A stretch of 64,000 bases of DNA. Origin: Sinorhizobium arboris LMG 14919 (GTDB lineage: Bacteria > Pseudomonadota > Alphaproteobacteria > Rhizobiales > Rhizobiaceae). Shown one piece after another: positions 9,587 through 35,739 of the stretch. Both the position numbers and the translations under genes were made by a program. Every line of letters starts with the position of its first letter. The first letter of the stretch is position 1. The notes beneath the pieces are model-generated. The model ran no database searches. It worked only from the letters and a program-made list of their open reading frames with translations, and was not told where the DNA came from. The stretch covers positions 248,001 to 312,000 of the forward strand of contig NZ_ATYB01000008.1 in assembly GCF_000427465.1 (NCBI RefSeq). Reading direction: 5' to 3'.

Positions 9587-9660
9587 GTCTGGTGAGGCAG
9601 AGCGCCAAAGATTTGCCAGCAAGAACGGTTTGTGGAATATGGCGGCAAGATGCGGGCGCC

Positions 9661-9769
9661 GCCCCTTACCCCAATCTCTGCCCGCAGGCGGGGCGAGGGG
9701 ACTGGAAGCATGCCGCGAGTCCCTTCTCCCCGCCCGCGGGGAGAAGGTGCCGGCAGGCGGATGAGGGGC
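9661..9769. repeat. RIME-like intergenic palindromic element, copy 2
   Basis: The right arm (9738-9769) is identical to the 32-base right arm of copy 1. The left arm has diverged (GCCCCTTACCCC at the outer end). An internal CTTCTCCCCGCCCGCGGGGAGAAG-type hairpin is intact. It sits just upstream of the left rkpT paralogue, so the promoter of that gene must lie in it, before it, or in the 14 bases after it. Confidence 0.8.
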
Positions 9770-9783
9770 AGCATCACTCATCC

Positions 9784-10584
9784 ATGGCAGTACACTTGAG
9801 GTCGGACGTGAATCTCATCCAGCAGCATCTGCGAGTGACGGCGGCGCTCATCGTGCGCGAAATGTCCACGCGCTTCGGCTCGAAGCCGGGGGGCTATCTC
9901 TGGGCGATCTTCGACCCGGTGGCCCATGTCGCACTGATGACGCTGATCTTCCAGGCGATCGCCAGGATGCCGGCGCTCGGCCTGAGCTTTCCGCTGTTCT
10001 TCGCCAGCGGCTATCTGCCCTTCGCCTTCTATCAGCGCATGTCCGGCTTCATGGCCGGCACGGTGAAGGCCAACAGGGCGCTTTTCTCCTACCCCATCGT
10101 CACCCCCTTCGATGCGATCGTCTCGCGCTTCATCCTGCAGCTGATGACCGATACGCTGGTGACGATCCTCATCCTGATGATGATCCTCGAACTCGGCGGC
10201 GTCAGCCAGCCGATGAACATCGCCGGCATGATCGAGGCCGCCGGCGCCGCCGCCCTGCTGGGTCTCGGCATCGGGACGATCAACATCGTGATGTTCGCCC
10301 GTTTCCCGCTTTACGAACAGATCTTCGGCATCGTCAACCGGCCGCTCTTCATGATATCAGGCGTCTTCTTCCTGCCGGAATCGCTGCCGAACCCCTTCCG
10401 CGATTTCCTCCTCCACAACCCTCTGGTGCATGTCATCATGTGGTTCCGAGAAAGTATCTACCCGGAGTACCGAGCCGATTTGCTGGACAAGGGCTATGTG
10501 ATCGAATTCGCGCTCGTCTGTTTTGTGGCAGGGCTGCTGCTGCTGACAACCTCGACGCGGGAGATACGGGAGGACAGACTTTGA
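9784..10584 (+). CDS. rkpT2: Capsular polysaccharide ABC-2 permease (RkpT/KpsM paralogue, left copy)
   Basis: This 266-residue inner-membrane permease has about six hydrophobic segments and the N-terminal signature of capsule and O-antigen ABC-2 permeases (VREMSTRFGSKPGG). It is a clear paralogue of the permease at 28215-28985: both share MSTRFGSKPGG/MATRFGSKPGG, the VxxPFDxIVSRFILQ region and LYEQIFGIVNRPLFMISGVF. No ATPase gene stands beside it, so it would need to borrow RkpS (27559-28218) or be non-functional. It overlaps the next gene by four bases. The symbol follows S. meliloti naming as I remember it. Confidence 0.85.
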   Translation: MAVHLRSDVNLIQQHLRVTAALIVREMSTRFGSKPGGYLWAIFDPVAHVALMTLIFQAIARMPALGLSFPLFFASGYLPFAFYQRMSGFMAGTVKANRALFSYPIVTPFDAIVSRFILQLMTDTLVTILILMMILELGGVSQPMNIAGMIEAAGAAALLGLGIGTINIVMFARFPLYEQIFGIVNRPLFMISGVFFLPESLPNPFRDFLLHNPLVHVIMWFRESIYPEYRADLLDKGYVIEFALVCFVAGLLLLTTSTREIREDRL

Positions 10585-11624
10585 GCGGCTCGCGCCGGCC
10601 GGCAATCTTCTTCGGCTTCAAGCCTTGGAAAGACTACGTTCCCCGCTGGTTTCCCGACCGGGACTGCAGGGTGGTGAGCCGCAAGCCACGCGACATGCTT
10701 CTCCAGGGTTGGCCGCTTCGACTGCTTCTCTGCCGCAGCCCTGAAGTCTATGTCTGGGGCTCCAAATATCCGCCGTTCCTGAAATCGTTCTGCCGCCGCT
10801 TCGGCATTCCCTTCTATCACGTCGAGGACGGATTCGTCCGTTCCGTCTCGCTCGGGGCCCAGAGATCGCCACCGGCCTCGCTTATCATCGACTCCCGGAC
10901 GCTGCATTACGATGCGCGCAGTCCCTCGGACCTGGAACTGACGCTGCAGACTTATGACTTCGCCGCCGACAAGGCGCTGATGGAGCGCGCGGACAGGTGC
11001 ATCCGCATGCTGCTCGATCTGCGCGTCAGCAAGTACAACCTAGGCAAGCGCGTGAGCCTCGACATCCTGTTTGGACCTAAAACGAGGCGTCGCGTGCTGG
11101 TGATCGGACAGGTGGAAACCGACGCCTCGATCGCTTTCGGCTGTGACCGGCCGGTGACCAACAACGATGTCGTGCGCCTCGCCGCGGTGGAAAATCCGGA
11201 TGCGCAGATCATCTACAAGCCGCATCCGGAAGTTCTGCACGGTACCCGCACGGGTGTGTCGAATCCGGCCGAGGTGGCGGACATTTGCGAGATATTGAAA
11301 GAGGATATCGCGCCCGCCGACGCTTTGGAGGGGATCGACCACGTCTACACGATAACCTCGCTGATGGGCTTCGAGGCACTGCTCCGCGGCATTCTGGTGA
11401 CGTGTTATGGGATGCCGTTTTATGCCGGTTGGGGTGTGACGGATGACCGCCAGAAGTGCGCGCGGCGGGTGAGGAGGCTCACGGTGCCCGCCGTTTTTTC
11501 GGCGGCGTATCTGTTGCGCTCGCGCTACTTCGATCCGGCGACTGGTGGTTCCACGAGCTTGGAATCGGTAATCTCGGAGCTAAGCCAAGACGTGTGCTGT
11601 CGCACGCCTGCAACAGGGACGTAG
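10581..11624 (+). CDS. rkpZ2: Half-size KpsC-like capsule glycosyltransferase (RkpZ paralogue, left copy)
   Basis: The protein matches the Capsule_synth (KpsC/LipB) family: HVEDGFVRSVS near residue 75, MTNNDxVRLA-like VTNNDVVRLA, IIYKPHPEV, and a conserved VYTITSLMGFEALLRG. KpsC proteins are Kdo transferases that build the poly-Kdo linker of capsules. This one, at 347 residues, has only one glycosyltransferase module where E. coli KpsC has two. It is a paralogue of 28991-30292. I chose TTG at 10581, which overlaps the rkpT2 stop as TTGA and suggests translational coupling; an earlier start inside rkpT2 cannot be excluded. Confidence 0.78.
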   Translation: MSGSRRPAIFFGFKPWKDYVPRWFPDRDCRVVSRKPRDMLLQGWPLRLLLCRSPEVYVWGSKYPPFLKSFCRRFGIPFYHVEDGFVRSVSLGAQRSPPASLIIDSRTLHYDARSPSDLELTLQTYDFAADKALMERADRCIRMLLDLRVSKYNLGKRVSLDILFGPKTRRRVLVIGQVETDASIAFGCDRPVTNNDVVRLAAVENPDAQIIYKPHPEVLHGTRTGVSNPAEVADICEILKEDIAPADALEGIDHVYTITSLMGFEALLRGILVTCYGMPFYAGWGVTDDRQKCARRVRRLTVPAVFSAAYLLRSRYFDPATGGSTSLESVISELSQDVCCRTPATGT

Positions 11625-11826: not shown

Positions 11827-12765
11827 ATGACTGAAACCAAGGAAATCAAGGTTATCGCCGAAATCGGCTGCAACCACATGGGCAGCATGGATACTGCCAA
11901 GGAATTGATCCGGGTGGCGGCCAAGGTTTGCGGAGCGCATGTTGCGAAGTTCCAAAAGCGGCACAACCGCGAGCTGCTGACGCCGGAAGAATATGACCGC
12001 CCGCATCCGGTGCCTGCAAATTCCTACGGCAAGACCTATGGCGAACACCGCGAGTTTCTGGAGTTTTCGGTCGGCCAGCATAAGGAACTGCAGGAGGAGT
12101 GCCGGGCGATGGGGATCGATTATTCGACCTCCGTGTGGGACCTGACTTCTGCCCAGGAAATCGCAGCGCTGAAGCCGAACCTTATCAAACTGCCTTCGGC
12201 CACGAACCAGCACTATATCCTCCAGGATTTCCTCTGCAAAAATTATGACGGTGAAATCCATGTTTCGACCGGCATGACCACGCATGACGAGACGGACCGT
12301 CTCGTGAAATTCTATGAAGAGCGCGGTCGTGCAAAGGACCTCGTGCTTTATGCCTGCACTTCGGGATATCCGGTTGCTTTCCCAGACATTTGCGTGCTCG
12401 AGATCAATCGTTTGCAGGAGCGGTATGGCGATAAGGTCAAGTCCATCGGCTTCTCCGGCCACCACCTCGGCATCGCTGCCGATGTCGCGGCAATGACGGC
12501 CGGCATCATCGGCCGCAACATCTACGGCAAGGGCGAGTTCGAATATGTCGAGCGTCACTTCACGCTCGACCGTACCTGGAAGGGAACCGACCACGCGGCG
12601 AGCCTGGAGCCCGATGGCCTGCGCCGCCTGTGCCGGGACCTCAAGAACGTCCGCCAGGCTGTCGCCTACAAAGACAAGGAAATGCTGGACGTCGAACTCG
12701 TCCAACGCGACAAGCTGAAGTGGCGCGAAGAAAAGCACGGTGCTCAGATCAGGCAAGTTTCCTAA
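11827..12765 (+). CDS. NeuB-type nonulosonic acid synthase lacking the SAF domain
   Basis: This 312-residue protein is a sialic acid/nonulosonate synthase TIM barrel: IAEIGCNHMGSMDTAKEL at the N-terminus, AKFQKR, KLPSATNQH, STGMTTHDE, and GFSGHHLG near residue 215. These enzymes condense phosphoenolpyruvate with a six-carbon amino sugar or sugar. Most NeuB proteins run to about 340-350 residues and end in an antifreeze-like SAF domain that contacts the partner's active site. Here the sequence stops after a charged helix, with no SAF-like piece. The start at 11827 fits an AAGAGGGAAG site. The stop is followed directly by the next start codon, so the two genes form one unit. Confidence 0.85.
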   Translation: MTETKEIKVIAEIGCNHMGSMDTAKELIRVAAKVCGAHVAKFQKRHNRELLTPEEYDRPHPVPANSYGKTYGEHREFLEFSVGQHKELQEECRAMGIDYSTSVWDLTSAQEIAALKPNLIKLPSATNQHYILQDFLCKNYDGEIHVSTGMTTHDETDRLVKFYEERGRAKDLVLYACTSGYPVAFPDICVLEINRLQERYGDKVKSIGFSGHHLGIAADVAAMTAGIIGRNIYGKGEFEYVERHFTLDRTWKGTDHAASLEPDGLRRLCRDLKNVRQAVAYKDKEMLDVELVQRDKLKWREEKHGAQIRQVS

Positions 12766-13935
12766 ATGAAGGTTATCGCCGTCATTCCTGCTCGGGGAGG
12801 TTCCGTTGGTCTCCCCGGCAAGAACATCAAGCCTTTGAACGGCGTGCCTCTAGTGGGGCGCGCTGTACTTGCAGCCGTCAACTCGGCATTCGTATCGGAT
12901 GTCTACGTATCGTCGGATTCCTCGGAGATTCTCGGAGTCGCCGCGTCTTTTGGCGCCACAGGCATCAGCCGTCCCGCCGAAATCTCCGGCCCGACCGCCA
13001 GCTCGGAGTCGGCGCTGATTCACACACTTCATGAGGTTGAGAGAATAAAGGGCAAGATGCCCGACGTTCTCGTCTTCCTCCAGTGCACGTCGCCCTTCAC
13101 CACATCGGAGCAGATCGACGCCGTGGTGTCGAAGCTCCTTGAGGAAGAGGCAGCAAGCGCTTTCAGTGCGATCGAGGACCACGGCTTCATTTGGCAGATT
13201 GCGGATGACGGTACGGCGGCCGGCATTACCCATGATCATACGAAACCTCGCCAGCGCCGGCAGGATATGACGCCGCGCTACCGGGAGACCGGCGCAATCT
13301 ATGCGATGCGTGTTCCGGAGTTCCTGGCGCAAGGGAATCGTTTCTGCGGCAAGACGGTGCTTGTGCCCGTAGAGATGCCGCCGATCGAGGTCGACACCGC
13401 AGAAGACTGGACGGTTGCCGAGGCCTATGCCCGCCTGCGGGACCCGCACCGCTTGCCCCAGCTTAAAAGGATCAAGGCGCTTATCACGGATTTTGATGGC
13501 GTGCATACGGACGATCGCGTGATCGTCAACCAGGACGGCAGCGAGGCCGTACGTTGCAGCCGCAGCGACGGCATGGGCATTGAAATGCTAAGGCATCGCG
13601 GCCTCAAAATGCTTATCCTTTCCCGCGAGCAAAACCCGGTGGTCAAGATGCGTGCAGCAAAGCTCCAGATGGACGTGCTGCACCATATTCGCGACAAGCT
13701 TCCGGCGCTTGACGCTTGGCGTACGGAGCAGCGGCTGGAATGGGCGGAGATTGCTTATGTCGGGAACGACATCAATGATCTCGACTGCATGAAGGTGTGT
13801 GGTATGAGCTTCGCCCCTTCGGATGCCCATCCGGAAGCGAAGGCGATCTCCACGATGGTGCTGCAGAGGTCCGGCGGCAACGGCGCTCTGCGGGAACTGA
13901 GCGAGTATCTGGTCTCGAACGATCTGATTGGCTGA
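12766..13935 (+). CDS. CMP-nonulosonate cytidylyltransferase fused to a HAD (KdsC-like) domain
   Basis: Residues 1-225 are a CMP-sialic acid synthetase domain, with the N-terminal IPARGGSVGLPGKNIKPLNG loop and the later RYRETGAIYA and EMPPIEVDTAEDW motifs. Residues 232-389 are a HAD domain of the KdsC type with TDFDGVHTDD (Asp242 and Asp244) and the closing YVGNDINDLDCM. The first domain activates a nonulosonic acid with CTP. The second could remove a phosphate from a 9-phosphate intermediate, or may be only structural as in animal CMAS. It starts on the base after the synthase stop codon. Its substrate, Neu5Ac or another nonulosonic acid, is not fixed by the sequence. Confidence 0.88.
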   Translation: MKVIAVIPARGGSVGLPGKNIKPLNGVPLVGRAVLAAVNSAFVSDVYVSSDSSEILGVAASFGATGISRPAEISGPTASSESALIHTLHEVERIKGKMPDVLVFLQCTSPFTTSEQIDAVVSKLLEEEAASAFSAIEDHGFIWQIADDGTAAGITHDHTKPRQRRQDMTPRYRETGAIYAMRVPEFLAQGNRFCGKTVLVPVEMPPIEVDTAEDWTVAEAYARLRDPHRLPQLKRIKALITDFDGVHTDDRVIVNQDGSEAVRCSRSDGMGIEMLRHRGLKMLILSREQNPVVKMRAAKLQMDVLHHIRDKLPALDAWRTEQRLEWAEIAYVGNDINDLDCMKVCGMSFAPSDAHPEAKAISTMVLQRSGGNGALRELSEYLVSNDLIG

Positions 13936-13939
13936 ACCA

Positions 13940-15181
13940 ATGCGCGTGTTGGCGCTCGCCTCCTACGATTCCTTTCTCAACATCGCGCGCCTGATCGCGC
14001 CGCATTTCGAGCGCGAGGGCTGCGAGGTGGAATTCGCGCTTGTCCAGGCGCGGCGTCATAAGCAAATCAGTGACAGCCAGGTGCAGCGTAGTGGCCTTGG
14101 GGCAAAGGTTTGCTGGATCGATATCGAGTCATTTTGCGGCTCCGGCGAGATTGCCGCCTATGACATCGTGCTTTCCTGTTTGGAAGGCCTTTCCACGCGC
14201 CGTCTGATGCACCATCTGATCCCGCTCGGCAGCAAGCGGCCCTTGGTGATTTCCGCCTATCCGGGGCTGGTACTGCGCTATGCCTATGACGGTTTTTCGA
14301 TGCGCACCGCAAGTGACCTGCTCTGGCTGAACTGCGAAGCCGATGTGGAGGCCTACCAGACAATGTGCAGTGCCTTCGACGTTGACGGCAGCAATGCGCG
14401 CGTCTTTGGCGTTGGTGCGCTTCTGGAACCAGTGAGCAGACAGCTGACAACGGAAACCGGTCCCGTCGTCTTCTTTGAGCAGGCGGTAATCCCGCGCAAC
14501 GAAGCCGAGCGCGAGTTTCTGGCCGAACAGCTTATTTTCTTGGCGAAGCGCTTCCCGCGAACCGATTTCGTAATTAAGCCGCGCACGACGGGCAACGACG
14601 CGACATTGCACCGCTCGGGATATCCGGTCGAATCACTGCTCAAGGCTGCCGCCAAGCGTCAAGGCGGCTGGCCGGGCAACTTGTCACTGACTTCAGAAAA
14701 AGCCTCGACGCTCCTCTCGGGAGCTTCCCACTGCCTTACCGTTTGCTCGACTGTTGCCGCCGAGGCCATCCATGCAGACATTCCGACAGCGATCATCGGC
14801 GACTTCGGGGCGTATGATGACTACGGACTTCAATATTTCTACGGTTCTGGGTTGATCAGGACGTTTGCCGAGCTTGAATTTCCGTTTCAGGAGAAGCCAA
14901 ACGCCAAGTGGCGCTCGCGGTATGTGGGTGACCCCAATCGGACAATCGACGAGCTAATTGCCGAGGCTGTGGGTCTCGCGCGACTTGAACGCCTGCCGTT
15001 GGTTCAAAGGCCGTTGCGTGCTGAAATGTCGCCGGAACTACGGGAGTATCTCGTGCGGCGAAACGGCCCATCTAACGTTCTCAGTCGAGCAGCGGCGGGC
15101 CGGCAGGCGAAAGGAGCACAGATGGTGCTCCACAGACTGGCACGAAAACTCGCCAAGTCAGCGCTTTTTGGGAGAGAATAG
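13940..15181 (+). CDS. Putative glycosyltransferase, DUF6716-like
   Basis: This 413-residue protein has the look of a GT-B enzyme. There is an N-terminal Rossmann-like start (RVLALASYDSFLNIARLIAPHF), then SAYPGLVLRYAYDGFSMRT, VIKPRTTGND, and a late TVCSTVAAEAIHADIPTAIIGDFG that resembles the donor-binding half of sialyl- and capsule transferases. I associate this pattern with DUF6716 putative glycosyltransferases that occur next to NeuB genes. It starts four bases after the cytidylyltransferase stop, in the same operon. The Lys/Arg-rich tail may touch the membrane. Donor and acceptor are unknown. Confidence 0.65.
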   Translation: MRVLALASYDSFLNIARLIAPHFEREGCEVEFALVQARRHKQISDSQVQRSGLGAKVCWIDIESFCGSGEIAAYDIVLSCLEGLSTRRLMHHLIPLGSKRPLVISAYPGLVLRYAYDGFSMRTASDLLWLNCEADVEAYQTMCSAFDVDGSNARVFGVGALLEPVSRQLTTETGPVVFFEQAVIPRNEAEREFLAEQLIFLAKRFPRTDFVIKPRTTGNDATLHRSGYPVESLLKAAAKRQGGWPGNLSLTSEKASTLLSGASHCLTVCSTVAAEAIHADIPTAIIGDFGAYDDYGLQYFYGSGLIRTFAELEFPFQEKPNAKWRSRYVGDPNRTIDELIAEAVGLARLERLPLVQRPLRAEMSPELREYLVRRNGPSNVLSRAAAGRQAKGAQMVLHRLARKLAKSALFGRE

Positions 15182-15335: not shown

Positions 15336-16535
<1,200 letters not shown>

Positions 16536-16647: not shown

Positions 16648-19452
16648 ATGAAGCGTCTGATTCTCGCCACCGGGAAATGGTCAACGATCCTGACTGTCGC
16701 GTATTTGAAGAGCCGTGGTGACCTCCATCACTACGACGATACTCTCGTGCACATGTCCCATGTGTGCGACCAGTCCTATCTCGACTCCTTCAATGAGTTT
16801 TGCAGCAAGTTTTGGGACTTCTCCGGGGTTCACTGCATCAACTACTGCATTTACGAAAACTCCACGCCAGAGAACTTTACCTTTGGAGACCTAAAAGAAA
16901 AATCGGATGCAGAGTGCACACGCCTGCTGTTGGAGATTCTTGGAGACGAGGAATACGACGAAATCATTGTGCCACATCTTTTCTCCCCGAAGTCTCGTTT
17001 GCTGATGGAGGTTTACGCTAAAGCGAGTGCGTATTGCATCGAAGAGGGGCTCAATTCGTATTTTAGACACCACAGCAAACTGAAATTAAACGACAGGGAA
17101 AGGTACTTTCTATCCAGGCTTCAAGGATACGTTAGCTTTAATTTCATGGGACTGCAGCCACTCTTCGATTTTGACGCTCATGGTGTGCCTGTGATCATCC
17201 CTGAGGTCACCTACGTCAAAGAGGCCATTGACCGAATTGCAGCTGAGGGATTGAGGGTTGCAGAGCCCCACGACCCGAATAAGGTCTTGTTTATAGGTCA
17301 ATTCGCACGGGCCGACATGTCAGTCGACCAGCTGTTAGAGCATTATCTTGCTTCAATTTCGTCGCTTCTACTGTTTGGATTCTCGGTTCATTTTGTAAAG
17401 CACCCGCGAGATACGGGCGTTATCAGCGAACTCCTGGAAGAGGCATTTGCCGGTCAGCAGTTTCATATAATCGACGCACCGAATGTACCGGTGGAAAGAA
17501 TTGCTTCTTCCCACCACTGGTGCGCTGCGGTCTCGTATGCTTCATCCGCGCTGGTAAGCATACCCGCCCTCTATCAAATCCCAGCCTTCACAATTGACGA
17601 GTACGATCTGGAGAAACTTTTGCCTGGGAATGGCGATTTCGGCAACGCACGCAACTTTTGCGCTGTGGTCGTTCCGACGCTGCGGTCGCTGCTAGCGAGA
17701 TTGGAAGAGAACGGTGATAGTCCTGCGGAAGTTGCGGCTGAGGTGTTCAGGTCCTTTCCTCCTCAGCACCACCTCCTGAAGAGGATTTACGCCCCCAAGC
17801 GGCCTGGCAACGATATACAGAGCCTGACCAAACTGACTCTCCGAACTATCGAAGAAAAGATTCAGAGAAACCCGTTCAACTCTAAGCTCAGATTGGCCCA
17901 CGCTCTCAGGGAACAGAATTACACCCGCGCAATGAAGTCGGCGTGGCAAGGATTACTGTTGCATCCTGGCCGGCTGGAGGCGTACCGAATTCTAATTTCT
18001 AAGCTTGTAAGCCCTGTGTCGCGTAAGCTCAACCCCACTATTCCTGATAAGGAGGCTGATGTCTTCAGGATCGCCCGCGCAAGGCCATTGTCGGTAGAAG
18101 CACTCTTTGGCTACGCCAAGCTTTGGGAGAGAAAATCCGAGTACAGCAAAGCCTTGGAGTATCGACTGCTCTCGGTGCTGACACATCCTTTTCATCCGCT
18201 GTCCTACTACAACCTTCTGAAGTGGGCACAAAAAAAAGCAACGTTCGACATCCGAAATAAGCGTTGTGGTTGGTTGTTCAACGTGCTCTTTGACCGTTCA
18301 TTGCGACGATTACAACGGCAGGCGACGGCGATAAGAAAAGCTAACGTGCCGGGAAAGCATATTTCGGCCTTGGCCTACCGCCCCAACAAGGGTGCTACAG
18401 GGGGGCCGGGCGGAGTGTTGGCGCTGCAAAAGGCGGTATTGGGTCCATACTTCGACGATCGTTTGATCAAGTACAATTTTCGAGGGAGTAAGTCTTATAC
18501 GGACTGGTATGCCGACATCGTCAGCGGAGGGAGTTTTGCGCTCGATCAGTGTAAGACTGGCGAGTACGCGCACTTTTTTGCCCATGACTTGGGTTGTGCG
18601 TATGGTCTTGCTTTAGCCGGCAGGAGTTATGTACTTGATTGGCATTTCCAAGGGTCGTTCGTCACGCAGATGCGGAACTTCGGCCATGAGCTGTCGCCAG
18701 CATTTATTGAGAAGTTGAAGGCAATTGAAGGCGTGGCTATGAAGGGAGCAAAATATGTGGTGTTCCCGAGTGATGGCGCTAGAGACATGTACTTCGACGA
18801 CGAATTCAGGGGATGCAACCGCGACGAAGTTTGCGTCGGCCCAAGTGTCTACAACACTATTCTCCCTGGGGCCGCGCGTCCCGACCTTTCAATCGGAAGA
18901 AGTTTGCCAGCCTTCGATGGCATTACCTTCACGAGCATTGGGACGTTGACGTTGGCAAAAGGCCAAGACCAAGTCTTGGATTTCTTTGACAGAATGCTTC
19001 CGCATGCGAAAACGCCCGTCCGGTGGATTTGCATCGGAGATGGTGTCATGCGGGAAGAGCTTCTTCTGCGAGCGAACAAACTCGCCGATGGGTACGAGAA
19101 GTTCGAGTTTACGTACCTTCCGAAGATCCCACACAAGCAAGTGATGAACGTGCTGCACGCATCTGACGTTTACATCATGCTCCACAGAATTTCGATTTTC
19201 GATTTTGCCACGCTCGAGGCGATGAAAAACAAGTGCGCGATTGTGCTTTCGAGAATTGGCGGGAACGTAGACTTCAATAAGGAAGGCAACGTCCTCTTTG
19301 CTGAGGATATGAAGTTTCCCAACAATGAGGTCTTTGGAGTTGAGAATATTTCGCGATTGAAAGAGCTTAATGTCGAGGTCTTCAATCGGTGTTTCTCCAT
19401 CCAGAATTTCAAAAAGCAGAATTTCGACTTGATTGAAAAACTCTGCGCCTAG
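16648..19452 (+). CDS. Two-headed capsule glycosyltransferase: sialyltransferase-like domain plus GT4 domain
   Basis: This is a 934-residue protein of at least three parts. Residues 1-320 carry the three motifs of bacterial poly/oligosialyltransferases: a D/E-D/E-G motif (IEEG at 131-134), HP (KHP at 251-253) and SS (YASS at 297-300). Residues 390-545 are helical and TPR-like (REQNYTRAMKSAWQGLLLHP). Residues about 565-934 form a GT-B fold ending in a GT4 donor domain (FTSIGTLTLAKGQDQVLDF, and TLEAMKNKCAIVLS with Glu857). The likely role is to build a mixed polymer from a CMP-nonulosonic acid and a nucleotide hexose. Meningococcal W/Y polymerases also join these two activities, but there the GT4 part comes first. 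It follows glf in the AT-richer segment. Confidence 0.78.
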   Translation: MKRLILATGKWSTILTVAYLKSRGDLHHYDDTLVHMSHVCDQSYLDSFNEFCSKFWDFSGVHCINYCIYENSTPENFTFGDLKEKSDAECTRLLLEILGDEEYDEIIVPHLFSPKSRLLMEVYAKASAYCIEEGLNSYFRHHSKLKLNDRERYFLSRLQGYVSFNFMGLQPLFDFDAHGVPVIIPEVTYVKEAIDRIAAEGLRVAEPHDPNKVLFIGQFARADMSVDQLLEHYLASISSLLLFGFSVHFVKHPRDTGVISELLEEAFAGQQFHIIDAPNVPVERIASSHHWCAAVSYASSALVSIPALYQIPAFTIDEYDLEKLLPGNGDFGNARNFCAVVVPTLRSLLARLEENGDSPAEVAAEVFRSFPPQHHLLKRIYAPKRPGNDIQSLTKLTLRTIEEKIQRNPFNSKLRLAHALREQNYTRAMKSAWQGLLLHPGRLEAYRILISKLVSPVSRKLNPTIPDKEADVFRIARARPLSVEALFGYAKLWERKSEYSKALEYRLLSVLTHPFHPLSYYNLLKWAQKKATFDIRNKRCGWLFNVLFDRSLRRLQRQATAIRKANVPGKHISALAYRPNKGATGGPGGVLALQKAVLGPYFDDRLIKYNFRGSKSYTDWYADIVSGGSFALDQCKTGEYAHFFAHDLGCAYGLALAGRSYVLDWHFQGSFVTQMRNFGHELSPAFIEKLKAIEGVAMKGAKYVVFPSDGARDMYFDDEFRGCNRDEVCVGPSVYNTILPGAARPDLSIGRSLPAFDGITFTSIGTLTLAKGQDQVLDFFDRMLPHAKTPVRWICIGDGVMREELLLRANKLADGYEKFEFTYLPKIPHKQVMNVLHASDVYIMLHRISIFDFATLEAMKNKCAIVLSRIGGNVDFNKEGNVLFAEDMKFPNNEVFGVENISRLKELNVEVFNRCFSIQNFKKQNFDLIEKLCA

Positions 19453-19659: not shown

Positions 19660-21654
19660 TTAGGTGAGGGTGGCGGCGAACTCCGCAGCCTGGGCACGCA
19701 GTTTGTCGCCGAGCACCGCGCGCTTTTCCGCAATCGAGGCGACTAGGCGATCCTCGTTATGGATGAAGAAATTAAGTTTGCCGATCATAGCATTTGCCAT
19801 GTCGTCTAGTTGTCCCCGCGTCATTTTTGGATTGCGTGGTACGTTGCAGAGGAATTCGTTCGACCCAAAATAGTCCACCGGCATCCCGCGCCGCTCAGGC
19901 ATTCCGATGAACGCAGCAGGCGTGTCGAAAGCGAGGAACGGCAACCAGCCGTGCAAGCGCTTCCCGAACGCAAAGCGGCTATCGCAGTATCGCTCACCGA
20001 ATGACGGGTGCTTCGACAGTGCCTCGTTAAATTCGTAATTGAACTCCTTCCCCGTAAGTTCCGCCTGCAGCAGATCACCGAAATAAGGCATGTCAATTTC
20101 AATGGGTGGAAACAGCTCCAGCAGCATCCGATTTGAGTCACCGGCAGCATTGATCATTGAGCGCACTTCCAGGCCTTCGGCCTCGGCATAGGCCTTGAAT
20201 CGTCGAAGGGGGTGGTCTTGGAAGTTCGCCTCGTTGAAGAGGAACTCGTCGAGGTTCACCACTACGAGGTCGCGTTTTCGCGGCTTGATGTCGAGCAGAG
20301 TGTCAGTGAAAAGTGATACGCAGGGAGACCACTCGGGTTCAGTCGAGGGGTCCACCCCGCGGATAAAGTCGGCTTCCCGTGTTGCGCGAACAATAATCTT
20401 CGGCGCGCGTGCTGTGACCCGGCGCACTGCATTGAGTTCTTCATCGGTTGGTTTCGCGAGGATCCCCGTCGACCAAAGAAAGAACTTGGAGTTCTGGAAT
20501 TGATCCCACTGCTTGGCGATTTTCTGGTGCAGGTGTCTGGATGAATTCGTTTGGACGAACATCCCGCCGGGACCGATGATTACGTTATCTGGCGCGTCTT
20601 GTCCGTCGCGGATGTAGACTGGTTCGTGCACGAAGCGAAAATCGAGGTCCACAAGACCATCGAACAACTTCCGAGTAACCTGGTATAGAAGGGCATCTCC
20701 GGCATTACCACGAACGCCACACGTAACCCATAGGGCCTTCTTCATTGCTCGTCCTTTTCCAATGTCCACCCGGGCGGTCCGAGACGTGTCTGCACAGGTC
20801 GACGAGCCCTTTCCGCCCGGTGTATCAAGTCCTTGTGCCTCTTGGTTAAAGACCCGGAGACCGGAAGCGCCGGAAATCGCCTCCTGACATAGCGCAGCTA
20901 GACTTTTTGTTCGGGGCAGCATCAATATTTCGTCCACGATTGCATTCGATCGCATGGAGCTTTGAAGATCCGCTTGCTTCCCCGCTGCACGCGTCAGACT
21001 ATCGACTACATCGGACACAGCGGCTTTGTCTGTGTTGTCAACTAAGAATGGTAGGACGACTGAGTGTGTTTGCAGCGGAAGCCGGACTAGCGAAACGCTC
21101 TCGCCGGACACGCTCTCTGCTTCTGACCGGTCGTTCGCGTTAAGATTGCCAAAGATGATGGTCGCGCTCGTGGTTGAGGGGACGTGTGTTACATCACCAT
21201 AGCGAGCTAAATCCTCTGCGATGCTCCTATCGGCCGATGCCACCTCCAGCAACTTCTTGTAGCTTGGAAAGCGCACCCGTGGATTCTCAGGGAAGATTCG
21301 CGTCTGCGGCCCAAAGCACAGACTTGAATACCGCCGGTGTCTGTCCTTGGTCGAGCATAGTGCTGCCATCAGCAGGGCGCCAAAGCCACCCTTTGAACAC
21401 CCAATAAAAAGCACTCGTGCTACGGCAAGTTCCGCCGCAATCGCTACGATAGCGCCTGAAGTCTCAGCGGCTCCGAGGGTGAAATATGTGTCTTTTTGGT
21501 CTGCGAGATGCAGGACGGTGGAGTGAAACTCAGTCTTGTAGAAGGCAAAGCTTTTCTTCTGAGAGAGCACGACAATCATCTCGTCGAGTCGCTCTCCGAA
21601 CCGAAGCTCAGAACTGATCCAGGGCGGAAGAGTGTTTTTAGTCTTTGCTAGCAC
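19660..21654 (-). CDS. Alpha/beta-hydrolase-like domain fused to a polysaccharide pyruvyltransferase
   Basis: The single frame encodes 664 residues from a GTG at 21654 (GAGGA upstream). Residues 1-240 look like an alpha/beta hydrolase with a nucleophile elbow (IGCSKGGFGALL, Ser87) and a later QTHSVVLPF His. Residues 304-664 match the WcaK/CsaB polysaccharide pyruvyltransferase family: VTCGVRGNAGDALLYQ, NVIIGPGGMFVQ and RLHGWLPFLAFDTPA. These enzymes transfer pyruvate from phosphoenolpyruvate onto sugars. Residues 265-303 are a low-complexity joint. Met304 (base 20745) is preceded by AAGGACGAG, so the second domain might also be made alone. The first domain could be an acyl- or acetyl-esterase acting on the capsule. 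Confidence 0.7.
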   Translation of the reverse strand: MLAKTKNTLPPWISSELRFGERLDEMIVVLSQKKSFAFYKTEFHSTVLHLADQKDTYFTLGAAETSGAIVAIAAELAVARVLFIGCSKGGFGALLMAALCSTKDRHRRYSSLCFGPQTRIFPENPRVRFPSYKKLLEVASADRSIAEDLARYGDVTHVPSTTSATIIFGNLNANDRSEAESVSGESVSLVRLPLQTHSVVLPFLVDNTDKAAVSDVVDSLTRAAGKQADLQSSMRSNAIVDEILMLPRTKSLAALCQEAISGASGLRVFNQEAQGLDTPGGKGSSTCADTSRTARVDIGKGRAMKKALWVTCGVRGNAGDALLYQVTRKLFDGLVDLDFRFVHEPVYIRDGQDAPDNVIIGPGGMFVQTNSSRHLHQKIAKQWDQFQNSKFFLWSTGILAKPTDEELNAVRRVTARAPKIIVRATREADFIRGVDPSTEPEWSPCVSLFTDTLLDIKPRKRDLVVVNLDEFLFNEANFQDHPLRRFKAYAEAEGLEVRSMINAAGDSNRMLLELFPPIEIDMPYFGDLLQAELTGKEFNYEFNEALSKHPSFGERYCDSRFAFGKRLHGWLPFLAFDTPAAFIGMPERRGMPVDYFGSNEFLCNVPRNPKMTRGQLDDMANAMIGKLNFFIHNEDRLVASIAEKRAVLGDKLRAQAAEFAATLT

Positions 21655-22359: not shown

Positions 22360-22960
22360 AAGCAGTTTGCTGTCCCTCGAACAAGTGTTGACGGTCTGAA
22401 ATCGCTGATGGGCCTGCCCGCTTCGGCTTGTACCCGGCGGCACTGCCGAGTTCGCTCTGGATTTCCGAAAGGTCAGTCAACCTCCTCGAGAGCACGGAAA
22501 CCTGTTCATCGTTAGCGGCAGGCGCATCGCGTAAACTTGAGTGGCGCGCTCGGTTCCTCCGTCAATGGAAGCGCCTTACTGTGCTACGTATAGAGTTGCG
22601 ACGGGTCCAGTTCCTGAGACCGCACAAATCGCCAATATATTGGCACCAGGGCGAGAGCGCCTCCGCGACAAACCGCGCGTTCTCTCCGACCAGTGGCGTG
22701 GCTTGCGTCGAGACTGCGCCGGCTCGGCTGTCAGGTCCTCGAATGATGATTCACATTGTCGCTCATCGGTTTCTCCGCATAACTCATGCTCAGAACGCGC
22801 GCTCAGCGGTCTTGAAATTACGTGGGGTAGTCTACGCGCTTACGGCACATCTAAAGCACTCGCTCTTACTCCTAACGGGATGGCGAGGACGATGAGAAGC
22901 GCATTGCCTGCAACTTACAAGTGCTCTATACACGGCGATCAGTGCACACTGGAGCAGACA
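22360..22960. other. Gap with no recognisable gene
   Basis: This stretch upstream of the RTX gene has open frames on the plus strand (for example 22428-22895), but none gives a protein I recognise or has a good ribosome-binding site. It probably holds the RTX promoter and leftover DNA from rearrangement in the capsule island. No repeat or RNA gene was seen. Confidence 0.4.
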
Positions 22961-24034
22961 ATGGCAAGATTAACGGTCGCATCAAACTATGGCTTTGATC
23001 AATGGAGCTTCGATTTCAGCCAGCTCTACTACGGGACGTCCTATGTTGGGACATCGACCCTGTTCCGGATCAACTATTCAGATGGCACAAGCGAAGAATT
23101 CCGTGGTACGGGGATTCAATACGATGCTTATGGAGTACCTTATGCCGGCATCATCACCTCGTATGCCGGCTATTACAACGGTCAGCAGCTTGTAATCTTC
23201 CAGGGCGGTAACATTGCTGTCGCTGATATTGTCGCGGCAGCAGATACTTGGTATGCCGGCGACGATGAGCAAGTCATTTTCAATGCCCTGAACGGTAACG
23301 ACACGCTTGTCGGTGGTAATCTCGCGGACGCCCTCGCAGGCTTCAATGGTAATGACGTGGTCAACGGCAACGGTGGAAACGATTTGCTCTACGGCTACGA
23401 TGGTAAGGATACGATCATAGGCGGAGCCGGGCGTGACTATATAGATGGCGGGGAGGGTAGCGACACTGCATCGTATGCGACCTCTCGGTCCGGGGTGGTG
23501 GCCAATCTTGCCAATCGCTATGCAAACACCAATGACGCCTCTGGTGACTACTACGTTTCGATCGAGCATCTATTCGGCACGGGTTACAGCGATCGCCTTT
23601 ACGGCAATTCGGCTGGAAACGTCATCACAGGAGGTAATGGCAACGATTCTATCGCTGGCGCGGGTGGCAATGATGCACTCGTTGGTGGCGCTGGCGCTGA
23701 TCGACTTTGGGGCGGGATCGGTGCCGATCGGTTCATCTTCAAAGCCGTGTCTGATTCCGCTGGATCCCAGGTCGACACAATCTTCGATTTTGCGCCGAGT
23801 GGCGGCGACAGGATTGATCTCGCCACGATCGACGCCAATGTGAATGCCTCGGGCAACCAAGCGTTCACCTTTATTGGTACCACAGCCTTTCAGGGGAAGG
23901 CCGGAGAGCTCCGCTATGTGAAGCAAGCGTCCGACACCTACGTCTATGCGGACGTGAACGGGGACAAGAAGGCGGACTTGGCGATCCATCTCGACGGTGC
24001 TGTGGCGCTGACGAAGGACTATTTTCTACTTTAA
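22961..24034 (+). CDS. Secreted RTX calcium-binding protein
   Basis: This 357-residue protein has no N-terminal signal peptide but many glycine/aspartate nonapeptides of the GGxGxDxUx type (LNGNDTLVGG, GGNDLLYGYDGKDTIIGG, GGNDALVGGAGADRLWGG) from about residue 105 to 260. The C-terminus (DTIFDFAPSGGDRIDL ... GDKKADLAIHLDGAV, then KDYFLL) is the serralysin-type end that carries the type I secretion signal. Such proteins bind calcium outside the cell. No catalytic domain is evident in the first 100 residues. The start follows GGAGCAGACA. No type I secretion genes are in the window. S. meliloti has a similar secreted protein in its rkp-3 region, as I recall. Confidence 0.85.
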   Translation: MARLTVASNYGFDQWSFDFSQLYYGTSYVGTSTLFRINYSDGTSEEFRGTGIQYDAYGVPYAGIITSYAGYYNGQQLVIFQGGNIAVADIVAAADTWYAGDDEQVIFNALNGNDTLVGGNLADALAGFNGNDVVNGNGGNDLLYGYDGKDTIIGGAGRDYIDGGEGSDTASYATSRSGVVANLANRYANTNDASGDYYVSIEHLFGTGYSDRLYGNSAGNVITGGNGNDSIAGAGGNDALVGGAGADRLWGGIGADRFIFKAVSDSAGSQVDTIFDFAPSGGDRIDLATIDANVNASGNQAFTFIGTTAFQGKAGELRYVKQASDTYVYADVNGDKKADLAIHLDGAVALTKDYFLL

Positions 24035-24111
24035 ATTGGCCGTCATTGAAGAACGCTTAATCGCTACCATTGATGTAGCGCTTTTGAATACGATCGCTTA
24101 AACACCGGGCA

Positions 24112-24145
24112 TCTCCTCTCTCGTGATTGGGAGAGGAGACCTTTT
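24112..24145 (+). terminator. Probable terminator after the RTX gene
   Basis: TCTCCTCTC (24112-24120) pairs with GAGAGGAGA (24131-24139) around a ten-base loop and is followed by CCTTTTC. The perfect nine-base stem lies about 80 bases after the RTX stop codon. Confidence 0.6.
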
Positions 24146-24289
24146 CAAAATAGTCCAGCTTCGGCGGTTTTTCCATTTTCCATTGGGCAGAATACCTACC
24201 CTTATAGGGAGTGGAAGGGAGAACTGTAATTCTTTATGGGCAAACGGTACCGTAGCGGCAAGTCGGGACCGTTCAGCCAACGTAGGTCC

Positions 24290-24425
24290 TCGAAGCGGCG
24301 TGCGACTTCGGAAACCTCCACGCCCGGCGCGAAAGCCTCCGCCAGTATCCGCGCGCGATCTTTCATCTCGCAACGACCGTCGCCGACGCCGCTCTGGTCC
24401 CGTCAGCAAAACTGTATGTCCATGA
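24290..24425 (-). mobile_element. Remnant of an IS66-family first transposition protein (frameshifted)
   Basis: Read on the minus strand, the DNA from about 24425 encodes LLTGPERRRRRSLRDE. After a frame change near 24366 it continues as KDRARILAEAFAPGVEVSEV and then ARRF. Together these match the N-terminal helix-turn-helix of IS66-type OrfA/TnpA, where the motif is usually (L)TGPERRRRW...KARIVAEAFAPG. After ARRF the match stops. So this is a broken piece only. The whole gap 24035-24612 holds this relic and the RTX terminator, and no other gene that I can see. Confidence 0.65.
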
Positions 24426-24612
24426 ATCGGACAATGCACTCTTAAGTCCACTCTTGAGTGCGCAGACTCGCGGGAGACACGGAACTCCGCAAGGCGGTGC
24501 CCGCCGGAGGGAAGCCTCATGGCTGGTGAGTGACTTGGGAGAGGGTGAGCGTCAATCAGGTTCGCGGATTCAGAGGAGCTTTTGGTAATCCCTAGTGACC
24601 GCGATTGCGAGA

Positions 24613-25950
24613 CTAAACCGCCGTTCTTGTACCGGCGCCACCAGTTGCAGGTGTTGGTGCTCCGAGCGGGACGATACCGTGAAACTTAAGAACTGAGCCA
24701 ACAGTTGCCATGTTTATGATTGCCTGTCCCGAAAAAGCATTCCGCAGGCTCACCCCATCAGCAAGAATTTCGGTGTCCGCGCCAGTTCCAACCACATTTA
24801 CACCACTGTAAGTTAAAGCGCCTGCTGACCCGATTTCTTGCAAATCAACGTTGCGAATGACTCCCTGGAAATCACCGCTGTGCAGGTCGATGCCATGACC
24901 TCGACAATACGTTCCGTGAAAGCCGTTAATGACGAAACCTCTGTTGTGCCCGGTCATCGTCATGAAGCTCATCGGTTCTACGCTTCGGATTGTTGCGCGC
25001 GTGCCGCTCACGCTATTATTGCGTATAGTGTAGTTAGCGCCGCCATCTATCTGGAATGCGATGGTGTTTGCATGCGTGACTGTACAGTTTTCAATGACAG
25101 AACCGTCACCAAGGGACCCGACGAAAATGCCGTCCCCAATGTTCGAATAGCAGTTGCGGACAATCAGATGAGCATTGCTTGCGTTAGCACCTCTGTTGCG
25201 AACGCCCGCGACCTGGATAGCGTGGAACTCGCATCCGTCCACGAGCAGGCGGCGAAAGCCAGTGGCACTGCTCGCGTTATCTCCGCCGCCTTTGACATAG
25301 TCGGCCTCGGCAGGCCAATCAAAGTCGATGCAGTATCGTGCTCTGGTCAAAAGTGAACCGATAAATGAACATCCTCGCCCCCGGTTCTTCGCAAGGTAGT
25401 AAAATCCGGAAACATACCCATCACGAAACGTGAAGTCTTGATCAGCGCGGCCGCCGTCTGGCTTGATCAAATGCACTCCAATATTTGCCTCACTCATTCC
25501 TGCAAAACTGTCGCATTGAATGCCGATATTTCGCATACCATTGCGCTCCCCCCGGACAACTATGGCCGCCTCGTCCACAATGGTTGTCCGCTTAAGCAAT
25601 GAGCTGTTGTCTTCACCATCGCCAACCCATTTTTGTCCGTCCTCATTAATGGACCACTGATCGGCAAAGGTGACCGGTGCATCAGCGTGCACTCGGATGG
25701 TGGGTTCACCGCTATCGGCCGCAGCTTGCAGCGTGCTGGACCAATTCGAAGGGTCAACACGGGTTTTGCGGAATTTTCGAAGCGAGATCGCGTCCGAACC
25801 GTAGTCTTTAATGTAGGTGAGGTTGAGCTGCTCAACCGGTTGATCGGGGCCTTCCCCTGACAGGTCTTGGGCTGAAGCTATCAACGGGAGCGCCGCCCCC
25901 GCCGTCAAAAATCTTTGCAGGAAATAACGCCTTCCGAGATGTTTTACCAT
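24613..25950 (-). CDS. Tat-exported parallel beta-helix protein (pectate-lyase-like)
   Basis: The 445-residue product begins with a twin-arginine-like signal (GRRYFLQRF near residue 6, then a hydrophobic stretch ending ASA). Beta-helix rungs run from about residue 110 to 400, with repeated units such as HLIVRNCYSNIGDGIFVGS, SVIENCTVTHANTIAFQIDG and NYTIRNNSVSG. This fold is shared by pectate lyases, glycan depolymerases, epimerases and phage tailspikes. Its place between the RTX protein and the rkpR export gene suggests it acts on the local polysaccharide, perhaps trimming it. No active-site residues can be assigned from the sequence alone. A periplasmic or secreted location is inferred from the signal. 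Confidence 0.72.
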   Translation of the reverse strand: MVKHLGRRYFLQRFLTAGAALPLIASAQDLSGEGPDQPVEQLNLTYIKDYGSDAISLRKFRKTRVDPSNWSSTLQAAADSGEPTIRVHADAPVTFADQWSINEDGQKWVGDGEDNSSLLKRTTIVDEAAIVVRGERNGMRNIGIQCDSFAGMSEANIGVHLIKPDGGRADQDFTFRDGYVSGFYYLAKNRGRGCSFIGSLLTRARYCIDFDWPAEADYVKGGGDNASSATGFRRLLVDGCEFHAIQVAGVRNRGANASNAHLIVRNCYSNIGDGIFVGSLGDGSVIENCTVTHANTIAFQIDGGANYTIRNNSVSGTRATIRSVEPMSFMTMTGHNRGFVINGFHGTYCRGHGIDLHSGDFQGVIRNVDLQEIGSAGALTYSGVNVVGTGADTEILADGVSLRNAFSGQAIINMATVGSVLKFHGIVPLGAPTPATGGAGTRTAV

Positions 25951-26221: not shown

Positions 26222-27559
26222 TTAGGCCCGGTCCCGAATGTTGTAATAACTCATCACGCCGATTCCCCAGGCAAACAGCAGACCGAGCGCCAATAAAAGG
26301 GAGTTCAACAACCGAGCGGGATATTGCGCCATCTGCGATAGCGTAGGCTCTATGAAAAGAGCGAGATACCGCTGGCGATTGTTCGCGTCGATACGGGCCT
26401 TCTCAAGCGAGCCCAACGCCGCCGTATAGGCACGCTCGGCGAATTCGCGTTCAGTCTCCAATTCCTCGAACTCAGCGATCCGGCCAGCGACGTCCGGGGC
26501 GTTTGGATCGTCAGCAGCCGACGTGCCCTTTTCGCCTGCACCCAAACGCTGCCGCTCCACGGCAAGCTGCTGTTCCAGGCTTTCGATGCGGGCCTTGAGT
26601 ACGCGGATACGCGGCGTGTCCTCGCTCATCTGGCTTTTCGCGGTGGCGAGATCGGCGTTGAGCTTCGTCAGCTCTCCTTCCAGGCTGCCGATCAGCTGAA
26701 CCGCAAGCTTCGCGCCTTCTTCCGGGCTGATTTCCTGGGACTTGTCACGATACTCGCGCAGCCCCGCGCGAGCCTTCGAAAGCCGCGCTTCGCCGGCTAG
26801 CACCTCGTCCTGCGCGCCGCGCAGGACGTCATTGCGCGCCGAAAGTGAGAGGCTGTTCACGAGGCTGTCGCTCTGATCGACGATGAATTGCGCAATCTCC
26901 TGCGCCTGTTTCGGCTCGAAGGCCTTGACGGTCACCTGCATAATGCCGGAGGCATGGTCGAAACTGACCTTCACCATATCGCGCCAATAGGCAAGCTTGT
27001 CCTCGATCGGAAGGTCGGAGCCGATGCCGTAGAAATAGTCGAGCCCGCGGGTGGCGTAGACCTCTTCCAGCTTGAAACGCCGGTCCGCGTCGGCGGCCAT
27101 ACGCTCGCTCAGGATATAGTCCATCAGGATATAACTGTCCGAAACGGTGCTGCCGCCGGAAGCCTGGGTGAACATGCCGAGGATGTCGCTGGAAACGCCG
27201 CCTTCGATGCTGCGGACGGCGAAGGAGGCCGTGCTGTGATACTGGTCGGCGGCGATGAACGCCATGTAGAGCGAGGCGAGAGTCGCCGGCAGAGCGACGA
27301 GACCGAGGAAAGATGCCGCGATGATAGTGTGACGAAACGCCAGTTTCGTCAGCCATTTTGGCCTGAAGTCGGGCTTGTTGGCCGGCAAGATTCTGTCCTG
27401 CCGTTCGCGAAGCGGGATGACGGGGGCGCTCTCTCGTGCGAGCAAGCCCTCTAATATGGCAATTCCCTTGCTTTTGGCATCGCCCTTGGCAGCCGCGGCT
27501 ATTTTATCAGCTTGAGCGGAGTCGGCTCCGTTCACCGCCGCGTCGTTCCTGACTGCCAT
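26222..27559 (-). CDS. rkpR: Capsule export polysaccharide co-polymerase (RkpR/KpsE-like)
   Basis: This 445-residue inner-membrane protein has a membrane segment near residue 80-105 and another near the C-terminus (about 415-438). Between them is a long coiled-coil periplasmic part (AKSQMSEDTPRIRVLKARIE and following). It has the Wzz/KpsE layout and links the ABC transporter to the outer-membrane channel in group 2 capsule export. The C-terminal PxLSQMAQYPARLLN block matches the proline-rich motif before the last membrane helix. It is the last gene of the minus-strand rkpZ-T-S-R unit; its ATG overlaps the stop of rkpS as TAATG. Confidence 0.88.
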   Translation of the reverse strand: MAVRNDAAVNGADSAQADKIAAAAKGDAKSKGIAILEGLLARESAPVIPLRERQDRILPANKPDFRPKWLTKLAFRHTIIAASFLGLVALPATLASLYMAFIAADQYHSTASFAVRSIEGGVSSDILGMFTQASGGSTVSDSYILMDYILSERMAADADRRFKLEEVYATRGLDYFYGIGSDLPIEDKLAYWRDMVKVSFDHASGIMQVTVKAFEPKQAQEIAQFIVDQSDSLVNSLSLSARNDVLRGAQDEVLAGEARLSKARAGLREYRDKSQEISPEEGAKLAVQLIGSLEGELTKLNADLATAKSQMSEDTPRIRVLKARIESLEQQLAVERQRLGAGEKGTSAADDPNAPDVAGRIAEFEELETEREFAERAYTAALGSLEKARIDANNRQRYLALFIEPTLSQMAQYPARLLNSLLLALGLLFAWGIGVMSYYNIRDRA

Positions 27560-28985: not shown

Positions 28986-28990
28986 GTCAG

Positions 28991-34621: not shown

Positions 34622-34651
34622 GCCGGCGCGCCACCGCCCGGCCTGCCGTCC

Positions 34652-35554: not shown

Positions 35555-35739
35555 GAAAATCCCTCCGCCATGTTCAGCCGATGCGCTTCCGCTCCGCCCC
35601 GTTCCTTGCGCAGACCCTAAATAAGTGCCCGGAGCAAGGCTAGTCGTTTTTGTCATAGTCTGGTGAAATAACTTCGCTTGCCGGGGCATGCGACCCGTGG
35701 GAGCTTCTCCGAAAGAATGTACAAATAAAGGGAACGAAG

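Follow-up and report, generated by a model that had tools for sequence, protein, structure and literature searches.

A two-headed protein in a rhizobial capsule locus

We analyzed a stretch of 64,000 nucleotides from the genome of Sinorhizobium arboris LMG 14919 (hereafter the window), in which the plus strand codes for a protein of 934 amino acids (positions 16648 to 19452; P0001, here called the fusion) that we consider a two-headed candidate capsule polymerase. The open reading frame (ORF) is intact over all 934 codons from its ATG start, and the same first 15 residues open the ortholog found in the Rhizobiales bacterium isolate AFS073149 (locus L019), which supports the start codon. A Pfam scan of the whole protein placed PF07388 (Alpha-2,8-polysialyltransferase) at residues 31 to 316 (E 5.1e-10), and the domain order is this PF07388 head, then a helical linker, then a head of the glycosyltransferase family 4 (GT4) type. 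An initial annotation, made from the letters and ORF translations alone, had proposed a sialyltransferase-type head first and a GT4-type head last, and both domains and their order are borne out by Pfam matches over the curated cut-offs. At the level of sequence, the presence of sialyltransferase-type and GT4-type heads in one protein is an observation, and judged by its domains and its locus the fusion is real, conserved, and well placed as a two-headed capsule polymerase candidate.

The fusion is flanked by two sets of export genes, as expected from the capsule context that had been claimed for it. The upstream set, on the plus strand, consists of a KpsM-like ABC permease (rkpT2-like; 9592 to 10584, with homology from about 9802; recognized by family matches and gene order) and a Capsule_synth protein (rkpZ2-like; 10440 to 11624; PF05159). 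The downstream set, on the minus strand, comprises a KpsE-like export protein (rkpR-like; 26222 to 27559; TIGR01010 below its cut-off, E 4.5e-69), an ABC ATPase in the KpsT position (rkpS-like; 27559 to 28218; Pfam ABC), a KpsM-like ABC permease (rkpT1-like; 28215 to 28994; family matches), and a second Capsule_synth protein (rkpZ1-like; 28991 to 30292; PF05159). The rkp-like names were assigned from family matches and gene order; the Pfam ABC and Capsule_synth matches are over their cut-offs, and the NCBIfam models for KpsM and KpsE give strong matches but below theirs.

Between the two sets we identified a NeuB-family nonulosonate synthase (11842 to 12765; PF03102), a CMP-nonulosonate synthetase-like domain fused to a KdsC/Kdn-9-phosphatase-like domain (12766 to 13935; PF02348 and PF08282 over cut-off; below, the CMP synthetase), a DUF6716 putative glycosyltransferase (13928 to 15181; PF20471), a UDP-galactopyranose mutase (Glf; 15345 to 16535; TIGR00031 over cut-off, PF03275), and the fusion itself, all on the plus strand, together with a polysaccharide pyruvyl transferase-like protein (19660 to 21654, minus strand; PF04230), an RTX-repeat protein, and a beta-helix protein. 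The local CMP-nonulosonate synthesis genes and the mutase that the initial annotation had named as neighbors are thus both in place. A gap of 112 bases separates Glf from the fusion downstream of it, and the two adjoin in L019 too (Glf 78%).

The described rkp-3 layout runs rkpZ1, rkpT1, rkpS, rkpR, a strain-specific region B, and rkpT2, with rkpZ2 (PMC5429615), and by that layout the fusion would sit in region B of an rkp-3-like locus. The GC content per kilobase is 0.51 to 0.56 from 15 to 26 kb and 0.58 to 0.69 elsewhere in the window, and such a low value is expected of an exchangeable region. Positions 32000 to 56000 match S. meliloti plasmid records of about 1.6 to 1.7 Mb (94% over 93% of the query; pSymB judging by size, and the record of strain ml28 has that name), which agrees with the rhizobial host that had been deduced.

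The N-terminal head

Residues 1 to 330 taken alone match PF07388, which we take to be family GT38, at residues 11 to 316 (16678 to 17595, plus strand), over positions 9 to 314 of the 316 in the profile, and score 43.5 bits where the cut-off is 23.3 (E 3.8e-11). The three sialyltransferase motifs that had been named are all present in the PF07388 alignment: a D/E-D/E-G motif (E132, E133, and G134; 17041 to 17049), an HP motif (H252 and P253; 17401 to 17406), and an S-S/T motif (S299 and S300; 17542 to 17547), named SS in the initial annotation. The ortholog has S299-T300 at the last of these.

In the polysialyltransferase (PST) of M. haemolytica, the catalytic base is E153 within D/E-D/E-G, and CMP is stabilized by H291 of the HP motif and bound at its ribose by E323 and at its phosphates by S339/T340 (PMC5517516). 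By motif, E133 of the fusion corresponds to E153, and E283 (17494 to 17496) lies at about the spacing of E323, the two proteins being compared by spacing and not by alignment (H252-31-E283-16-S299 in the fusion, H291-32-E323-16-S339 in PST). The motif positions coincide with residues that were shown to act in catalysis in PST of M. haemolytica and in NmB-polyST (PMC5517516, PMC2169525). Across ten aligned PF07388 proteins, all ten keep the HP pair, the Gly that ends D/E-D/E-G, and a Ser or Thr at position 299, and six keep the Glu at 283. Seven of the 11 other PF07388 loci were considered for this alignment (L006, L014, L017, and L018 stayed outside it); L013, which has no D/E-D/E-G, was excluded, and the other six were kept by motif pattern, so that in those six the motifs are conserved in part because of how the rows were selected. 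Among the rows, L004 and L005 belong to one genus and are alike, and those of the window, AFS073149, ml28, and G244 were not chosen by pattern.

The same motifs could be read differently, as the HP motif is common to beta-Kdo transferases (PMC5517516) and KrkA is a two-headed polymerase in which a transferase of 3-deoxy-D-manno-oct-2-ulosonic acid (Kdo) comes first (PMC12887879). We regard a head that transfers Kdo from CMP-Kdo in place of a nonulosonic acid as very unlikely, given that it matches PF07388 and not PF05159 (Capsule_synth), and that a CMP-nonulosonate module is found in the same locus in both genomes.

The linker and the C-terminal head

The linker (residues 386 to 565; 17803 to 18342, plus strand) is helical, weakly similar to tetratricopeptide repeats (TPR), and the part of the protein with the lowest identity to the ortholog. 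A profile made from the two orthologs gave an engineered TPR protein as its best match (E 0.0012 summed over repeats, residues 477 to 533), with no single stretch significant alone, and no Pfam TPR model exceeded its cut-off in the fusion. Hence, of the helical repeat region that was said to join the heads, a faint TPR likeness stands and a Pfam-recognizable repeat does not. A joined TPR domain and GT-B head are also known from FlmG of an alphaproteobacterium (PMC7591256), and a protein glycosyltransferase of that type, with TPR and a nonulosonate transferase, would act on flagellin. This is scarcely credible for the fusion, which has capsule genes on both sides, a second glycosyltransferase head, its TPR-like part in the middle, and no flagellar gene among the ORFs scanned.

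The GT4-type head (residues 566 to 934; 18343 to 19449, plus strand) matches PF00534 at residues 759 to 882 (39.7 bits against a cut-off of 26.4, E 4.6e-10) and PF13692 within residues 759 to 884 (38.2 bits against 27, E 2.1e-9), both of them over cut-off, so that the GT4 assignment of the C-terminal part holds at the level of family models. Among solved chains, the nearest to the profile of this head is the capsule polymerase Cps3D (8qoy, residues 962 to 1035; E 0.0045). A phmmer search of the solved chains with the single fusion sequence gave no match at E 1 or better.

Conservation and rarity

The ortholog L019 was the one relative returned when the contig collection was scanned with six short peptide patterns. 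It is 66% identical to the fusion by tblastn over residues 1 to 934 (67% in the alignment) and contains both heads in the same order (PF07388, E 3.1e-16, 60.2 bits; PF00534, E 1.6e-9). Identity is 69% over residues 1 to 330, 47% over 386 to 565, and 74% over 566 to 934, which suggests that both heads are constrained and the linker less so; as dS is saturated between the two genes, protein identity was used in place of dN/dS. Near the ortholog, positions 14891 to 16540 of L019 code for a cytidylyltransferase fused to an aldo/keto reductase, perhaps part of a second nonulosonate pathway there.

No further full-length copy of the fusion was found in 59 other relatives, plasmids or phages, or in 296 other genomes of the family at E 1e-10; these negatives are weak, since the plasmid search (E 1e-5) also missed a PF07388 protein of ml28 that is present in that collection. 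Against the fusion, that protein scores E 6e-4, and against the ortholog between E 5.8e-4 and 1.2e-5 according to the direction of the search (small databases). Weak in the same way are the negatives from the profile of the GT4-type head, with no match at E 1e-12 among 248 other genomes, and from the alignment of the N-terminal head, with none in viral contigs. PF07388 was detected in 5 of the 397 genomes sampled from the order (4 over cut-off) and 9 of the 397 sampled from the phylum (8 over cut-off), with our own genome and G244 in both samples. Outside our own genome, the PF07388 frames are 315 to 416 amino acids long, save one of 909, although in samples like these distant fusions may escape.

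Several long frames were considered as additional polymerases and rejected. The 909-amino-acid frame of L006/L007, taken as a second fusion from a PF07388 match of 39 positions, belongs to PF04464, and its PF07388 match, close to the C terminus, is below threshold; the 1,124-amino-acid frame of G784 is a histidine kinase, and the 1,307-amino-acid frame of G1027 is a caspase-domain/TPR protein. In AFS073149, frames of 846 and 835 amino acids turned out to be an acetyltransferase-family/HAD-like protein and a TPR protein.

The nonulosonate core and other two-headed proteins near it

The genes for NeuB, CMP synthetase, and DUF6716 were counted by tblastn across 11 loci, namely the window, AFS073149, S. 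meliloti ml28, S. fredii CCBAU 25509, S. fredii NXT3, Ensifer adhaerens Casida A, Rhizobium sp. 32-5/1, G840, G784, G1027, and G017; five of the six plasmid records with a NeuB of at least 90% were taken into this comparison. In each of the 11 loci NeuB occurs along with the CMP synthetase, and in 10 of them DUF6716 is next to the pair, the exception being L037, which has none within the 20 kb examined. As the loci were selected for NeuB or the CMP synthetase, the DUF6716 count alone is informative, and a gene that stays with the core whatever the cassette is what would be expected of a priming transferase. The fusion is present in 2 of the 11. In AFS073149, the second of these, identity to the window is 91.5% for NeuB, 70% for the CMP synthetase, 62% for DUF6716, and 62% for a Capsule_synth gene, and these genes share one contig of 319,862 bases with the fusion, at a distance of about 19 kb. 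The CMP synthetase is found in 5 of 297 genomes of the family, our own included, at E 1e-60 and in 3 of 33 genomes of the genus at E 1e-40; in L026 it is in two pieces in different frames. NeuB (307 amino acids) is 85 to 97% identical in ten related loci, and DUF6716 is 56 to 79% identical in the nine that have it.

The pSymB plasmid of ml28 (locus L022) codes for two further two-headed proteins. The first (23414 to 25084; 556 amino acids), directly after DUF6716, combines a CST-type sialyltransferase domain, which we take to be GT42, within residues 24 to 241 with a glycogenin-like GT8 domain in residues 261 to 467. The second (34285 to 37344; 1,019 amino acids) combines, by profile matches, a PF07388 head (residues 65 to 319, E 3.1e-20) with a ribosyltransferase/HAD head like that of Bcs3, the Haemophilus influenzae type b (Hib) polymerase (Bcs3 match at residues 413 to 756, E 1.9e-22; ribofuranosyl transferase, E 5.7e-11), and by analogy with KrkA it is likely a nonulosonate-ribose polymerase. 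About 11 kb that includes transposase and recombinase genes separates this gene from DUF6716, so that it may be part of a different island. Among the selected ORFs scanned, all three distinct two-headed proteins with a recognized sialyltransferase head have that head first.

In G017, the sole gene called between DUF6716 and a KpsE-like gene codes for a protein of 812 amino acids (L040, 9224 to 11662) that ends in a GT4 domain (E 9.2e-15) and has QDG, HP, and ST motifs, seen by eye, in its first 400 residues. Its first half has no Pfam match over cut-off and no solved relative, and hhalign gave no profile match to the PF07388 head (probability 0.4%); it is a candidate only for a similar two-headed polymerase.

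Proposed function

Our preferred reading, which we hold to be reasonably probable, is that the fusion is a bifunctional polymerase of a group 2-type (ABC transporter-dependent) capsule, predicted to consist of a nonulosonic acid alternating with a hexose. Synthesis would start on a Kdo primer made on lipid by KpsS/KpsC-type enzymes, to which a conserved transferase, perhaps DUF6716 in a priming or transition role, would add the first residues. The PF07388 head would then elongate the chain by a nonulosonic acid taken from a CMP donor, E133 acting as the base and H252 stabilizing the leaving CMP, and the GT4-type head would add a sugar from a nucleotide donor to give an alternating acid-sugar chain. 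The TPR-like linker may hold the heads and the chain together, as proposed for Cps3D/Cps7D, and the chain would be exported through the exporter encoded at the same locus. The activity, the polymerization, the order of the steps, and the roles given to the linker and DUF6716 are those we infer from domains and neighbors. The polymerase reading draws on the two domains with their motifs and their conservation in the ortholog, the position of Glf next to the fusion here and in the ortholog's genome, the CMP-nonulosonate core in the same locus or contig, the export genes on both sides, Cps3D as the solved chain nearest to the GT4-type head, and the two-headed proteins of ml28 near the core.

The donors would be CMP-Kdn (Kdn, 2-keto-3-deoxy-D-glycero-D-galacto-nononic acid) or a related CMP-nonulosonate for the first head and UDP-galactofuranose (UDP-Galf) or UDP-galactose (UDP-Gal) for the second. 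A route through NeuB, a CMP synthetase, and a 9-phosphatase leads to Kdn from mannose 6-phosphate, and a core that has a 9-phosphatase-like domain and no NeuC-type neighbor perhaps fits Kdn. The NeuC model has one match in our own genome, below its cut-off, and two AGE-type epimerases are encoded elsewhere in it, so the acid may instead be N-acetylneuraminic acid (Neu5Ac). A Kdn-containing polysaccharide has been reported from S. fredii, as cited in PMC9000132 and PMC7845648.

It is also conceivable, if rather unlikely, that the two heads act as linked but separate transferases, the GT4-type head adding a single linker or side-branch sugar (e.g., Galf) and the PF07388 head extending or capping the chain. 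DUF6716 and the pyruvyl transferase-like protein indicate that further steps exist in this locus, and the N-terminal ulosonate head of WbbB is described as terminating its chain (PMC12887879). Against such a division of labor, no other sugar-chain glycosyltransferase was found among the eight ORFs scanned from DUF6716 to the KpsE-like gene, which leaves the fusion as the only evident chain extender there.

Several results weigh against the polymerase reading, the strongest against normal GT4 activity being found in the GT4-type head itself. The EX7E motif of GT4 enzymes appears here as S849-x7-E857 (19192 to 19218, plus strand), with Ser for the first Glu and the second Glu kept in both orthologs, and we therefore call the head GT4-type by profile and do not file it as canonical GT4. 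Our own genome has 24 GT4 matches, counting the fusion; the residue aligned with the first Glu of the motif is Glu in 18 of them, Asp in 2, and Phe in 1 (L064), 2 cannot be aligned there, and the fusion alone has Ser. Activity is lost without the first Glu in AceA and without either Glu in BshA (PMC10361700), and S849 may mean that the head is altered or dead. If dead, it would be structural, and the PF07388 head alone would make a nonulosonic acid homopolymer such as the one known from S. fredii HH103 (PMC9037385). We judge this to be quite unlikely, as no part of the protein is better conserved than the GT4-type head, L064 also has no acid at that position, and Glf has been kept beside the fusion. 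A furanose donor as the reason for the change at S849 would be speculation.

The structural evidence for the other head also falls short of what the polymerase reading would predict. The AlphaFold models, made from two-row alignments, are poor (mean predicted local distance difference test score [pLDDT] of 36.0 at full length and 48.8 for residues 1 to 385), and a Foldseek search with the low-confidence model of residues 1 to 385 returned mostly GT-B enzymes and UDP-GlcNAc 2-epimerases at TM scores of about 0.3 to 0.4 among the 50 matches listed, with the Neisseria lipooligosaccharide sialyltransferase 2yk7 at rank 36 (TM 0.2) and M. haemolytica PST not among the 50. Such a model would suggest a general GT-B resemblance in which sialyltransferases are not singled out. 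The sequence profile of residues 1 to 385 found no sialyltransferase among the solved chains, its one match being at chance level (E 0.59). The sialyltransferase fold proposed for the N-terminal part is hence backed by the PF07388 profile and not by a solved relative.

Similar reservations apply to the donors and the linker. In NeuB, PF03102 is the sole match over cut-off, TIGR03569 is below its cut-off and covers positions 3 to 273 of 329 in the profile, and the antifreeze (SAF) domain, which gives key substrate-binding residues in meningococcal NeuB (PMC7591256), is not recognizable. The NCBIfam models for PseF, KdsC-type, and Kdn-9-phosphatase proteins all match 12766 to 13935 below their cut-offs. 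Glf would make UDP-Galf available, and its tie to the donor of the fusion is one of neighborhood only. The TPR domain of Cps1B is dispensable for activity (PMC5974469).

Comparison with known polymerases

The fusion most likely works like the polymerases SiaD W, KrkA, and Cps3D/Cps7D. The meningococcal SiaD W/Y enzymes also join a GT4 hexosyltransferase and a CMP-sialate transferase in one protein through an intervening sequence, but their GT4 head is first and the sialyltransferase last, the latter is GT97 where the fusion has PF07388 (a separation made by description), and they conserve EX7E where the fusion has SX7E (PMC10361700). These differences are consistent with an independent assembly relative to the W/Y polymerases, as had been suggested. 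The reversed order of heads holds against W/Y and was overstated as a general novelty, as the orders of KrkA and Cps3D/Cps7D are already in print.

KrkA of E. coli K13/K20/K23 resembles the fusion in having an ulosonate transferase first and a pentosyl head after it, in a single protein that could account for the whole repeat; it differs in using Kdo and in pairing GT140 with a phosphoribosyltransferase/HAD pair, in contrast to the nonulosonate and the PF07388 and GT4-type heads predicted here (PMC12887879). The TagF-like Cps3D/Cps7D likewise have two heads, of which the last is a GT-B galactosyltransferase, and they carry a TPR domain (PMC11666461, PMC5974469). Their other head transfers glycerol phosphate, and their TPR domain is N-terminal, whereas the TPR-like part of the fusion is between the heads and weakly recognizable; truncation of the Cps3D/Cps7D TPR domain makes elongation less processive (PMC11666461).

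The GT38 polysialyltransferases, M. haemolytica PST and NmB-polyST, have the D/E-D/E-G, HP, and Ser-Ser/Thr motifs in the same order. These enzymes make sialic acid homopolymers, whereas the domain of the fusion is joined to a linker and a GT4-type head. The ml28 proteins are parallel in arrangement, in that a sialyltransferase head (PF07388 or CST-type) likewise comes first and a second transferase follows, downstream of the same core; the place of the GT4-type head is taken by a Bcs3-like ribosyltransferase in one and by a glycogenin-like GT8 in the other. In the literature listed and surveyed by title and the start of the abstract, with subscription papers largely outside it, no rhizobial two-headed sialyltransferase polymerase is described.

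K-antigens have a bearing on nodulation in some pairings of Sinorhizobium and legume (PMC4881576), and their strain-specific chemistry is coded in rkp-3. The fusion is a concrete candidate for an enzyme that makes the chain, with a predicted repeat unit of one nonulosonic acid and one other sugar. If this is true, a domain of the polysialyltransferase family would be working in a heteropolymer. Together, the fusion and the ml28 proteins suggest more than one origin for two-headed polymerases, with different parts put together each time. A more far-reaching and tentative idea, which we would not bet on as a whole, is that the strain-specific region of rkp-3 is a shelf of interchangeable two-headed polymerases fed by one core, in which PF07388 or CST-type heads front GT4-type, ribosyltransferase, or GT8 heads, and that the fusion in particular uses UDP-Galf to make a nonulosonate-galactofuranose copolymer.

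Other features of the region

The pyruvyl transferase-like ORF at 19660 to 21654 codes for 664 amino acids, of which the first half contains a GCSKGG stretch and the second half is the pyruvyl transferase-like part; in L019, the two halves are separate genes that flank Glf and the fusion. Two further proteins are encoded within the capsule region, one with RTX calcium-binding repeats (22541 to 24034) and a beta-helix protein with a Tat-like N terminus, seen by eye (24613 to 25950), which possibly acts on polysaccharide.

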